Assembly (NCBI GenBank): GCA_024696825.1
Contig: JAILGL010000140.1
Span: 1-64,000 of the forward strand
Direction: 5' to 3'
DNA length: 64,000 bases
From: Lachnospiraceae bacterium
GTDB lineage: Bacteria; Bacillota; Clostridia; Lachnospirales; Lachnospiraceae
Shown: positions 25,934 through 34,697 of the stretch, one piece after another
Layout of the letters: each line of letters starts with the position of its first letter
Position numbering within the stretch: position 1 is the first letter of the stretch
Translations under genes and position numbers: made by a program
Notes under the pieces: generated by a model
Database searches by the model: none
The model's input: the letters and a program-made list of their open reading frames with translations, nothing else
What the model was told of the DNA's origin: nothing

Positions 25934-26082
25934 CTCTCAATTATAATTAAGATAATAGTTTTCTTATTTCATTTCGTTTTCATAGATAATTTTATTCTAG
26001 TCTCCTAAGACGATTATGTCAAGGAGAAGGGGCTTTTTTTATGGCTTTTTTTATGTGTTTTTAACTAGTTTTCAACTATTTC

Positions 26083-26111
26083 TTGACAACCATTTTCACT
26101 ATCCATATAAT
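26083..26111 (+). promoter_or_regulatory. Consensus sigma-A-type promoter of the lysR gene
   Basis: TTGACA (26083-26088), 17-nt spacer, TATAAT (26106-26111). Confidence 0.85.
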
Positions 26112-26116
26112 GTACC

Positions 26117-26151
26117 AAAAGGCAATGAGGTCAAACTTGTTGCCTTTTTTT
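26117..26151 (+). terminator. Intrinsic terminator/attenuator hairpin in the lysR leader
   Basis: AAAAGGCAA-14 nt-TTGCCTTTTTTT starting at the predicted transcription start. Confidence 0.65.
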
Positions 26152-26180
26152 GCGTTTTTAGAAGTAAGGAGGAAGACATT

Positions 26181-27062
26181 ATGAATGAGAAAAGGATTAA
26201 ATATTTTATAGAAGCGGCCAGGACTCTAAACCTGCATAAAGCCTCTCTAAACCTTGGTATAAGTAGTGCAGCCTTAAGTAAACAGATTGCTTCTTTAGAA
26301 GACGAATGGGGTATTTCTCTATTTGACAGAACTAATAAAGGTCTGGTTTTAACCCCGGCGGGAACTGCCATGTATAGAGACATTTGGCGCATTAAGAACT
26401 ATTATCTGAAGGCTCTTAACAATGCGAGACTTGAAAATGACAAGCAGGAACGCCACATTAGAATAGGCATCAGCTCTCTTGGAGGTGGAAAACTCCTACT
26501 AGATGTTTTTGAAAAGCTTCAGTATAGGGATAATTCATTTACCTATGAATTTGTAAACTTTAATATGTCCAAGGAAGAGGTGGAAAAAATTGTAAAAACC
26601 CTCGGTAAAAAAATCGACATTTTATTCAGCGTTTATGATGATTCCATTATAAATAAAGACTTTTGCAAGGCGGTAAAGGTAACTCACGAACGCCTTGCCT
26701 TAGCTGTTCCAAGAAAGCATCCACTTAGTAATAAAGACTGTATAACCCTTAAGGATCTGCAAAAAGAAAAATGTGTCCTTCTTCACAATGCAAAGGATAA
26801 GGATAATCATTTGATAAAAGCGAAGCTAAGTAAATATGGCATAGAAACAGAAAGCTTAGTAAACTATAACGAAGATACCTTCAGTGAATGCGAGAAAAAT
26901 AATAAGATTCTTTTTGTTTTAAACTTCTGGAAACCCCTTAATCCACTTATTAAAATAATGCCTTTAGAATGGGATTGCGTAGTGCCAATATGCATGTATT
27001 ACAGTAAACTCGCCAACACTGACACCTTGGAATTTGTAAAGAGAGTTAAAACCCTTTTGTAA
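26181..27062 (+). CDS. LysR-family transcriptional regulator
   Basis: N-terminal HTH (KYFIEAARTLNLHKASLNLGISSAALSKQIASLEDEWGISLFDRTNKGLVLTPAG); AAGGAGGAAG before ATG at 26181. Confidence 0.92.
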   Translation: MNEKRIKYFIEAARTLNLHKASLNLGISSAALSKQIASLEDEWGISLFDRTNKGLVLTPAGTAMYRDIWRIKNYYLKALNNARLENDKQERHIRIGISSLGGGKLLLDVFEKLQYRDNSFTYEFVNFNMSKEEVEKIVKTLGKKIDILFSVYDDSIINKDFCKAVKVTHERLALAVPRKHPLSNKDCITLKDLQKEKCVLLHNAKDKDNHLIKAKLSKYGIETESLVNYNEDTFSECEKNNKILFVLNFWKPLNPLIKIMPLEWDCVVPICMYYSKLANTDTLEFVKRVKTLL

Positions 27063-27203: not shown

Positions 27204-27224
27204 GAATCTTGAAAAATAGGCACT

Positions 27225-27253
27225 TGACAGTGATATTTTCTTGTGATAGTATC
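27225..27253 (+). promoter_or_regulatory. Sigma-A-type promoter upstream of the tandem nitrilase gene
   Basis: TTGACA (27225-27230), 17-nt spacer with TGn extension, TAGTAT (27248-27253). Confidence 0.8.
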
Positions 27254-27271
27254 TGTGTCAATCGATTGAGA

Positions 27272-27318
27272 CAAAGGAGTCACCTTCCCGATTAAGGCGA
27301 CTCCTTTGTTTTTTTTTG
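27272..27318 (+). terminator. Strong intrinsic terminator between promoter and nitrilase gene (attenuator or small-RNA 3' end)
   Basis: ACAAAGGAGTC-a-CCTT-cccgatt-AAGG-c-GACTCCTTTGT followed by a T-run. Confidence 0.8.
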
Positions 27319-27370: not shown

Positions 27371-30079
27371 ATGAATCATAAAAAATTATTTGAAAGTATT
27401 TATAAGAAATTTACTGTTGCTGCTGTAACAACTGCCATGACTCTTACCTTGGCAGCTCCATATGAAGCAGGTGCAGCAGTAACTAAAGAAGTGACAGTTA
27501 CAAGCTCAGAGAGACTTGAACAGCCTGTTAGTTCATATAAATTTGCAGCTAATGAGCTTGGGGTTGTTAACTTCCACCCTACATGGGGAGATAAAGAAGC
27601 TAATATCGAAAGCATGAAGAAATACATTGATGAAGCCTATAAATTAGGTGTAAAAATCCTTTTATTCCCTGAAATGTGTGTTACCGGTTATGTTTCATCC
27701 AGTAACCCTGAGTCAGAGGATTATAAATGGGCTGTTTCATCTGCAGAGTATTTAAATGGTCCTACAGCAAAAACCTTTGGAAAAATTGCTGACGACTATG
27801 ATATGTGGATAGTTTATGGAGCAACTGAGAAAATCGAGGGAGATGACGAGCATGCGTATAACTCAGCATTTGCCTGTTCTCCAGAGGGTGATGTTACAGC
27901 ATATGAGAAAATTCACCCTGTTGAGGGTTCTTGGTGTACACCTGGTGAAACCCCAGTCCTCCTTGATGCCGGGGAGTATGGTAAGATTGGTTTAAGCATC
28001 TGTTATGATACATATGCAACACCTGAGCTTTCCAGATACTATTCTGCACAGGGTTGTAACCTCCTATTAAACCCTACTGCAACCTCTCGTGGTTATTCAC
28101 TTACAGATGATTCTAAATGGGAGTGGTATTATAAAAACCGTATCGAAAGTGCTTGTTCTCGTGAAGGTTTTACAATGTTAAGTGCCGATTTAGTTGGTAA
28201 GGACGGCTTAAATGATAAGTACACCTTCCCAGGTGGTAGTGTAATTCTTAGTGGTGCTTTCTCAGGACCTGCTTATTATGGTGGTACTGCAGATGCTAAT
28301 GGTAAGGCTAATCCAAAGGCCGATATTATAACCGGTGAAGAAGGCTTGGTTACAAATGTAGCTGAGTGCTCAACCAGATCAAGCGGTGCCTGCAACAATA
28401 AGGATTTTAATCCTGAACTATATACTACCCTTTATAAGGAATTAGCAGATAAAAAAGCAAGTGGCGAAACATTGAGCTACAAGTATACAGGTAAGAGTAC
28501 TCCAAGAGCTGCAACAGTTAATATGACAGGTTATTGGGGTAATAAGGAAAAGACAGTTGATAAGATGATTGAATACATTGAAGAAGCAGCAGAAGAAGGT
28601 GTGGACATCCTTGTATTCCCTGAAACAGTTCTTTCAGGATATGGATATGTAACTCCTGATAAAGATCCATTTTATCATAAATACGGTGTTTCAATGCAGG
28701 TTGCAACTGCAGAAACAATCCCGGGTGCAACTACTAATTTATTATCTGAATATGCCAAGAAATATGATATGTACATTATCTTTGGTATGACTCAGAAGGA
28801 AAAGAAATATAAAATGTATGAAGAAACCTTTTACCGCGCCGAAAGCAGAGGTGCAGTTGAAAAGGTTTATAACTCAGCAGCTATCTTAGGTCCTGACGGA
28901 TCAATAGATTCTTATCAGAAGATTCACCGTGCAGGTGACGAGGATCAGTGGTCAGCATGCGGTAAAACTCCTAAGATTATAGATACAAAATGGGGTAAGA
29001 TTGGTGTAGACATTTGTCGTGATGGTCATTTCTATCCTGAGCTTGGTCGTTATTACGCAGCTATGGGATGTACCATGTTCATCCACCCTACAGCAACTAC
29101 CGGAAATGCATGGTATCGTGAATCAAGAATCGCATCTTATACAGACCGTGACTGCATGAATGCAATTACCTGTAACCTTCTTGGTGGTGACGGTATCTAC
29201 GATCCAAGTAAATCCTTTGACCCTACAGATGACGAAGCAAACTTCGACGAGAATGGAAACTTCATCGGTGGTGATGAAATTCCTGAACCAATGGATTATG
29301 ATGCAGACAACGATTACTGGAAATCCGAAAACTGGATTGGAACCGGCGGAATATTTAACAGTACAAGTTTAATTATCACCAAGCAGAGATCAAATGTAAG
29401 CTTAAATGGTACCGGTTCTGAATCAGAAACCTATGCAGAAAATGGTCTTACAAGTCCTTTAGGTCTTGAAATCGCAGATATGGATATGAGTAGAGCAGGT
29501 TTCTCAATCGCAGGATTTAACCCTGGTTTATTCTCAAAAATGTATGACAAGCTCTCTGTATTATACCGTGGCGGATACACTTCTATCTACGAAGAAAATG
29601 CAGTTAGTGAGCCTGTAACTCTTAACTATAAGGTTATGTCAGATACAGTACTTGCAAGTGCTGCCCCTGCTTCACCAGAGGTAAGTACTTCACCAGCTGT
29701 AAGCGCATCACCTGAGGTAAGTGCTTCACCTGACGCTTCTGCTAGTCCTACTTCTGATGCTTCAGTATCACCTTCACCTGAAGCTGAGGTTAAGGCACCT
29801 GACAAGGTTAAAAAGGTAACAGCTAAAAATGTAAAGGGTAAGAAAATAAAGCTTACCTGGAAAAAGGTTTCAGGAGCTAAGGGTTATGAGATAAAGTATT
29901 CTTACAAGAAGAGCTTCAAAGCTTCAACTACTGAAACTACTACAAAGACTTCTTACAAATTAAAGAAGCTTAAGAAGGGCAAAAAATGCTTCATTAAGAT
30001 TCGCGCATATAAGCTTAATGGCAAGAAAAAGGTATATGGTAAATGGAGCAGTAAGGTTAAGGTTAAAGTAAAGAAATAA
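27371..30079 (+). CDS. Secreted protein with two carbon-nitrogen hydrolase (nitrilase) domains and Lys-rich fibronectin III-like C-terminus
   Basis: Signal peptide; domain 1 FPEM / YEKIHP / ICYDT; domain 2 FPET / YQKIHR / ICRDG; SPEVSASP linker; PDKVKKVTAKNVKGKKIKLTWKKVSGAKGYEIKYS tail. Confidence 0.88.
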   Translation: MNHKKLFESIYKKFTVAAVTTAMTLTLAAPYEAGAAVTKEVTVTSSERLEQPVSSYKFAANELGVVNFHPTWGDKEANIESMKKYIDEAYKLGVKILLFPEMCVTGYVSSSNPESEDYKWAVSSAEYLNGPTAKTFGKIADDYDMWIVYGATEKIEGDDEHAYNSAFACSPEGDVTAYEKIHPVEGSWCTPGETPVLLDAGEYGKIGLSICYDTYATPELSRYYSAQGCNLLLNPTATSRGYSLTDDSKWEWYYKNRIESACSREGFTMLSADLVGKDGLNDKYTFPGGSVILSGAFSGPAYYGGTADANGKANPKADIITGEEGLVTNVAECSTRSSGACNNKDFNPELYTTLYKELADKKASGETLSYKYTGKSTPRAATVNMTGYWGNKEKTVDKMIEYIEEAAEEGVDILVFPETVLSGYGYVTPDKDPFYHKYGVSMQVATAETIPGATTNLLSEYAKKYDMYIIFGMTQKEKKYKMYEETFYRAESRGAVEKVYNSAAILGPDGSIDSYQKIHRAGDEDQWSACGKTPKIIDTKWGKIGVDICRDGHFYPELGRYYAAMGCTMFIHPTATTGNAWYRESRIASYTDRDCMNAITCNLLGGDGIYDPSKSFDPTDDEANFDENGNFIGGDEIPEPMDYDADNDYWKSENWIGTGGIFNSTSLIITKQRSNVSLNGTGSESETYAENGLTSPLGLEIADMDMSRAGFSIAGFNPGLFSKMYDKLSVLYRGGYTSIYEENAVSEPVTLNYKVMSDTVLASAAPASPEVSTSPAVSASPEVSASPDASASPTSDASVSPSPEAEVKAPDKVKKVTAKNVKGKKIKLTWKKVSGAKGYEIKYSYKKSFKASTTETTTKTSYKLKKLKKGKKCFIKIRAYKLNGKKKVYGKWSSKVKVKVKK

Positions 30080-31859: not shown

Positions 31860-33326
<1,467 letters not shown>

Positions 33327-33479: not shown

Positions 33480-34697
33480 TTATTTCTCAGATACGAAGCA
33501 GCCGTCCTCGCTGTAGTAGTTCTTCTTTCCTACCTTCTGGACTGTCTGAATCATAAACGAATTATATTTGCTACCTGCTTCCTTCTTTACGGTTACCTGA
33601 TTTGACTTAGTTGTAAAGAGATTCTGATATTTCTTTTTCTTTGAATTATATCTTCTGATTCTGTAGGCTGTAGCACCCTTTACCCTTGTGAAGCTCACAG
33701 TGACTGTATCAGAAGTTTTTTTCACAACCTTATACTTCTTAACTTCCTTTGGTAAAATCTTAAATTTAACGGTCTTAGTGCCTTTATAATTGCCTTTGAA
33801 CTTTATCTTTACTGTCTGAGTACCAACCTTTTTAAGATTTGTTTTCTTTTTGATGGTATAATCAGTCTTTTTGTAGAGCTTCTTAGTTTTCTTATCATAA
33901 ATCTTTGGAGTAATTTTCTTACCCTTATATGTATAATTTAAGGAAAATACCTTTCCTACTTTTTTCGCATTTATTTTAAATGTAATGCTCTTCTTATCAA
34001 CATTTCCTGCATATCCGACTACAGTGATGGTTCCTGTTCCCTTATTAATATTGTTTTTATAGGTTACATAGTAATCTTCATTTTCAGTAAGGGTTTTTCC
34101 TTCCTTGGAAACAACCTTAACAACCGGCTCAATCTCAGAACCTGTATATGTGTAAGCTGTCTTAGTTGTTGTGATGGTAGAATTCTTAATAACAGCTGCA
34201 CCTGAGGTTGCAGCTGCATCCCCCTTAACATACAGATTAACCTTGAAGCTTATAGGAGAACTAACTGCTACATCACTTCCAATCATATAATAATAAGTCT
34301 TTCCTGCTGTAAGACTCTGCTCAAGATAAAAGTTAGAATTAATGGTTGATAAATCTTTATTAGATGCTATAAATGATTCGCTACTGTCATAAAGAATAAC
34401 CATTGGATCATAATTTCCTTCAGAGCTTATAACATATGTATCTGTCTTTTCAGGTACAAATTTATAATAAAGCTTCTCTGTTGATTCCTTGATTACACAG
34501 TTTATACTTCCTGTTGATACTGCTGTTGCTGTCTTAAATCCATTAGTTTCTACTGTTTCTGCAGCTGCCTGTGCAACTACATTTGAATCAGGATTATTAC
34601 CTGCAAAGCAATTAAAGCTGTCTCCTGCTGCAACTCCTGTCATAGCTATTATAGCTGCCATGGTCAATGATACAAGTTTGGAAATCTTTCTAATCAT
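33480..34697 (-). CDS. Secreted protein with PPC-like and Lys-rich Ig-like domains
   Basis: Signal peptide; EKLYYKFVPEKTDTYVISSEGNYDPMVILYD; basic beta-rich repeats. Confidence 0.7.
   Translation of the reverse strand: MIRKISKLVSLTMAAIIAMTGVAAGDSFNCFAGNNPDSNVVAQAAAETVETNGFKTATAVSTGSINCVIKESTEKLYYKFVPEKTDTYVISSEGNYDPMVILYDSSESFIASNKDLSTINSNFYLEQSLTAGKTYYYMIGSDVAVSSPISFKVNLYVKGDAAATSGAAVIKNSTITTTKTAYTYTGSEIEPVVKVVSKEGKTLTENEDYYVTYKNNINKGTGTITVVGYAGNVDKKSITFKINAKKVGKVFSLNYTYKGKKITPKIYDKKTKKLYKKTDYTIKKKTNLKKVGTQTVKIKFKGNYKGTKTVKFKILPKEVKKYKVVKKTSDTVTVSFTRVKGATAYRIRRYNSKKKKYQNLFTTKSNQVTVKKEAGSKYNSFMIQTVQKVGKKNYYSEDGCFVSEK

Follow-up and report, generated by a model that had tools for sequence, protein, structure and literature searches.

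A gene for a protein with two nitrilase domains was found in the window, that is, the whole 64,000-nucleotide stretch of Lachnospiraceae DNA that was analysed, and its product is, in our judgement, rather probably a predicted-secreted amidohydrolase with which the cell liberates ammonia from amides outside it, under nitrogen control by an ANTAR protein. The most informative clue to this function is the leader of the gene, which was absent from the earlier note on this DNA. The architecture, the active sites, the tandem fold, the promoter-terminator leader, the occurrence of ANTAR proteins in 11 genomes and the shared leader element were all derived from sequences. The coding features were as follows:

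27371-30079, + strand: tandem nitrilase gene, 902 aa (open reading frame with an ATG start; Pfam)
27371-27478, + strand: predicted signal peptide, about residues 1-36 (by inspection; the type of N-terminus is kept in orthologues)
27557-28330, + strand: nitrilase domain 1 with E101, K180, E185 and C211 (Pfam, alignment, AlphaFold2)
28505-29617, + strand: nitrilase domain 2 with an extended C-terminal part and E418, K517, E524 and C549 (Pfam, alignment, AlphaFold2)
29660-29800, + strand: Pro/Ser/Ala linker, about residues 764-810 (sequence)
29804-30028, + strand: Lys-rich fibronectin type III domain, residues 812-886 (PF00041, E = 1.7e-6)

The ATG of the open reading frame is preceded by an AGGAGG ribosome-binding site. 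Two stretches of the protein matched PF00795 (CN_hydrolase) with an E-value of 9.1e-55 and 186 bits versus the curated cut-off of 23.2, and no PF00795 match beyond this gene was found in the same genome. On inspection the N-terminus, MNHKKLFESIYKKFTVAAVTTAMTLTLAAPYEAGAA, looks like a Sec signal peptide; a basic and hydrophobic leader opens every orthologue, the sequence of this stretch itself being poorly conserved. The two nitrilase domains, the Pro/Ser/Ala linker and the fibronectin III-like C-terminus described in the earlier note were confirmed by Pfam and inspection, its signal peptide remains a prediction by eye, and each of the motifs listed there (FPEM, YEKIHP, ICYDT, FPET, YQKIHR and ICRDG) was found in the protein. 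Its interpretation as a whole was partly supported, with secretion, the tandem layout and two intact sites backed by sequence and conservation. None of the NCBIfam equivalog cut-offs inspected (nitrilase, AguB, aliphatic amidase, deaminated glutathione amidase and Lnt) was reached, the best subfamily score being 124.6 bits versus a cut-off of 500 and the others falling far below theirs. Residues 765-902 matched the fibronectin III-like C-termini of many other large open reading frames of the same genome, which suggests a general surface module. Within the family this module was exchangeable, being of the fibronectin III type in the window gene, L035 and L067 and a BspA-type LRR_5 in L038 and L068. 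The wall association proposed earlier is no more than suggested by this C-terminal module, which in most members is of the fibronectin III type; a sorting motif was not noticed. The protein is probably a surface-retained amidohydrolase of the nitrilase superfamily that is predicted to be secreted.

The Glu-Lys-Glu-Cys tetrad was complete in both domains. The pairwise alignment placed E185 on E120 of PH0642, and E524 is the second catalytic Glu of domain 2. All eight catalytic residues were invariant across the 11 family members (the window gene and 10 orthologues), eight of which were 60-82% identical in the full alignment; the triads are therefore not a matter of chance. The view that both Glu-Lys-Cys triads are intact was thus borne out and extended by the second Glu. 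The orthologous loci L034-L039, L067, L068 and L069 represent nine genomes besides the window's own and that of its genus-mate, whose locus is apparently L033. They came from Lachnospiraceae or Eubacterium metagenome-assembled genomes and one labelled Clostridiaceae, several of them from the rumen. The family is rare: five of 397 sampled Lachnospiraceae genomes had it, the window's own included, and of 399 genomes sampled across the phylum the window's own alone did. The orthologue at L069:6528-9069 consists of two overlapping open reading frames split between the domains, owing to a frameshift or an assembly error.

More distant tandem nitrilases resemble the window protein in carrying two PF00795-type domains per chain and differ from it in that each has one inactivated site. 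Domain 1 of L070 (701 aa, with an apparent signal peptide) lacks the catalytic Glu, Lys and Cys, domain 1 of L094 (8017-9831, - strand, 605 aa) has Ser in place of Cys, and in L096 (212-1906, + strand, 565 aa) domain 1 is normal and domain 2 has VMGD where ICxD is expected. L094 and L096 further differ from the window protein in having no visible signal peptide and in being encoded within clusters of catabolic appearance. The L094 cluster places NADH:flavin oxidoreductase-like and triosephosphate isomerase-like genes beside the tandem nitrilase, and permease-like, racemase-like and other catabolic-looking genes lie 3' of that of L096; a single-domain relative, L071, sits after a branched-chain-type ABC transporter gene set. 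A non-catalytic domain in homologues, a finding that the earlier note had set against its own proposal, was thus absent within the family and present in the distant tandem relatives. These relatives would fit a protein in which one domain alone is active in vivo and the other mainly provides a dimer surface; with all eight catalytic residues invariant at both sites within the family, we consider this quite unlikely. Clostridial tandem nitrilases thus recur and often lose one site, and the predicted-secreted family retains both; since the divergent tandems each have one dead site, the retention looks selected.

AlphaFold2 modelling of the 697-residue tandem with a 30-row alignment gave a pLDDT of 90.2 and a pTM of 0.90; with only the eight close orthologues aligned, the pLDDT had reached just 49.9, which the larger alignment remedied. 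Because the two domains were set relative to each other with this pTM, it is plausible from the model that they form a covalent dimer within one chain. The best 50 Foldseek matches in the PDB all belonged to the nitrilase superfamily (alpha-beta-beta-alpha fold), with target TM-scores of up to 0.82. The top match was the Pyrococcus horikoshii amidase with bound glutaramide, at a TM-score of about 0.8 normalised to the target versus about 0.3 normalised to the query, meaning that each match spans one domain; no PDB chain covering both domains was among these 50. Other best matches were the Nesterenkonia amidase, NIT2 and N-carbamoylputrescine amidase. These enzymes and PH0642 share the fold, the Glu-Lys-Glu-Cys residues and sequence similarity with both window domains; unlike them, the window protein is predicted to be secreted, has two active-looking domains per chain and belongs to a family with a fibronectin III or LRR tail. 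The surroundings of the nucleophile differ between the domains (ICYDT versus ICRDG), as do the nearest PDB sequences, and each domain is separately conserved, as might be expected of a two-step enzyme whose domains do different jobs in succession, on a diamide or on a nitrile that is hydrated and then hydrolysed. Duplication followed by drift gives the same pattern, and we regard a division of labour of this kind as very unlikely.

The interval upstream of the gene contained the following elements:

27224-27252, + strand: sigma-70 type promoter, TTGACA - 17 nt - TAGTAT (sequence; TTGAC(A) kept in 11/11 loci)
27258-27269, + strand: candidate first ANTAR hairpin (P1), TCA-AUCGAU-UGA (A at position 1 and G at 4; 3-bp stem, no linker to P2)
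27270-27281, + strand: second ANTAR-type hairpin (P2), GAC-AAAGGA-GUC (loop bases A1 and G4, in line with PMC3369931; shares sequence with the 5' arm of the terminator)
27270-27317, + strand: intrinsic terminator between promoter and gene, arms GACAAAGGAGUC and GACUCCUUUGU followed by a U tract (fold, compensatory changes)

The terminator sits about 55 bases 5' of the start codon and folds with -24.5 kcal/mol (z = -5.8). A promoter followed almost directly by a terminator was found in all 11 loci. Across these loci, 94.9% of the cells in nine terminator pairs were paired versus 44-70% in slid controls, a figure that counts as support and not as proof, the sequences being related and the pairs chosen with the alignment as a guide; four pairs had changed on both sides. 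No Rfam family was found in the leader or elsewhere in the window, and the Phe_leader candidate on the opposite strand (21 bits versus 55) was rejected, as it was really a reverse reading of the terminator hairpin. When the leader was searched for with strict DNA patterns, only the window gene or ribosome-binding-site look-alikes matched.

An ANTAR target RNA has two hairpins, each with a stem of at least 3 bp and a six-base loop whose first base is A and whose fourth is G; the second hairpin overlaps the terminator (PMC3369931). In the eut leaders of E. faecalis the linkers measure 5-12 nt, and induction is lost at 3 nt (PMC3369931). The A1/G4 hexaloop was present in nine of the 11 orthologous leaders, and G stood at position 1 in L038 and L067. 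P1 was not evident in several orthologues, and the window copy, folded alone, gave an equivocal picture with a tetraloop form in competition with the hexaloop; the L069 leader has two canonical ANTAR hairpins with a short linker between them. We treat the window leader as a predicted ANTAR target RNA in which P2 follows the rule and P1 is weak, its short stem and missing linker counting against ANTAR control.

The genome of the window encodes one ANTAR protein, and its gene lies directly 3' of glnA. On the contig concerned (C72; L057/L058), gltB-gltD-pyrG-carA-carB-glnA-ANTAR are arranged on one strand. Each of the 11 genomes carrying the tandem nitrilase gene had exactly one ANTAR protein; for the ten of them examined anew, its gene was immediately 3' of a glutamine synthetase-like open reading frame. 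NitR is a clostridial antiterminator linked to glnA. The gltB leader contains two textbook hexaloops (GATGTC-AAAGGA-GACATC and GAAGC-AAAGGC-GCTTC) ahead of a terminator, and the glnN leader a single one (GGC-AAGGGC-GTC), which precedes glnN and a gene fusing amtB with P-II. This fusion gene (L058:9310-11079, - strand), downstream of the type III glutamine synthetase, codes for one 589-aa chain that joins an ammonium transporter to a P-II domain. The P2 element occurred at four of 35 terminator-like sites in about 99 kb (the window and part of the ANTAR contig), in a scan that applied the published rule but whose design followed the discovery of the leader. The four sites belonged to the tandem nitrilase gene, gltB, glnN and one antisense position within a 1181-aa open reading frame. 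A covariance model trained on the nitrilase leaders (R1), a weak tool, matched glnN weakly (E = 0.05) and missed gltB, which speaks against the shared control; its remaining matches in the genome were mainly ordinary terminators, a site on contig C91 ahead of a gene being perhaps real. Around positions 1500-1545 of L083, a promoter-like sequence and a terminator with the loop AAAGGC precede a gene that begins MAAFDRVKSGIEQMDK; this may be a further ANTAR target.

With the same loop rule in the 5' terminator arms of nine of 11 loci and in gltB and glnN, and with amidases as the closest folds, we consider a secreted double nitrilase of non-nutritional purpose unlikely; such an enzyme would act on wall or peptide amides, detoxify nitriles or cyanide or remove a signal, and the leader would be an ordinary attenuator or one of a non-ANTAR kind. 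Its case comes from acyltransferases and detoxifying nitrilases among nitrilase-fold enzymes, the weak Lnt and nitrilase profile matches, the surface type of the C-terminal module and a LysR gene adjoining in several loci:

26016-27062, + strand: LysR-family regulator gene, a possible extra regulator (adjoins the nitrilase gene in some orthologous loci only)

The LysR gene was upstream in just four examined loci (the window, L033, L034 and L037). Across the orthologous loci there were no conserved operon partners, and no ammonia-uptake or catabolic gene was consistently linked, a point against the nitrogen-scavenging reading. The glutamate dehydrogenase gene at 31869-33326 was rejected as a functional partner, its upstream region being without a hexaloop element with a stem of at least 4 bp. 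Further along the window, 33480-34697 (- strand) encodes a secreted-looking protein of 405 aa whose C-terminal half is rich in Lys and which has no Pfam match.

For the preferred reading, an ANTAR-controlled amidohydrolase, we infer that the protein is an active enzyme, that it releases ammonia, that the ANTAR protein binds the leader and in which direction regulation works. Transcription would begin at the promoter at 27224-27252 and halt at the leader terminator by default; binding of the ANTAR protein to the hexaloop hairpin or hairpins would prevent the terminator from folding and allow read-through, so that the enzyme would be co-produced with gltBD, glutamine synthetase and AmtB under nitrogen need. 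The two catalytically complete domains would form one rigid tandem unit that hydrolyses the C-N bonds of extracellular amides, or of N-carbamoyl or nitrile compounds, by way of Cys thioesters, and the released ammonia would be taken up into the nitrogen assimilation of the cell. The proposal of the earlier note that the enzyme acts on an external amide gains indirect support from its closest folds, which are amidases, and from a leader of nitrogen-regulon type. More tentatively, the two live sites may constitute the extracellular ammonia-releasing arm of an ANTAR nitrogen regulon of gut Lachnospiraceae, possibly attacking different or successive amide bonds.

ANTAR targets are tied to nitrogen genes, the ami amidase operon among them, and the aliphatic amidase gene amiE of Pseudomonas, controlled by ANTAR antitermination, provides a precedent (PMC3369931). 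Like the window gene, the amiE-AmiR system combines a nitrilase-superfamily enzyme with a leader terminator bearing an ANTAR hexaloop (PMC3369931); unlike there, the sole ANTAR gene here adjoins glnA, and secretion of the enzyme is predicted. Glutamate and glutamine synthesis and ammonium transport are covered by ANTAR nitrogen regulons (PMC3369931). The present genome resembles them in its ANTAR gene within a gltBD-glnA cluster and its hexaloop leaders at gltB and glnN-amtB, and differs in that the predicted regulon extends to an extracellular hydrolase. A search of the open-access literature returned nothing relevant on secreted or tandem bacterial nitrilases. Bacterial enzymes of the nitrilase superfamily are normally cytoplasmic; AmiE itself is single-domain and cytoplasmic and has an amide-sensing partner. 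The vertebrate biotinidase and pantetheinase are secreted amidases of the superfamily, eukaryotic and with one catalytic domain, and their likeness to the window protein is one of description, without sequence comparison.

The tandems that have lost one site form a natural series in which to study the conditions under which the second active site of a duplicated enzyme is retained or lost. The response of expression to nitrogen limitation would be a cheap handle toward the substrate. If the proposed function is true, the predicted-secreted tandem nitrilases would represent an unrecognised route by which gut and rumen bacteria draw ammonia from external amides.
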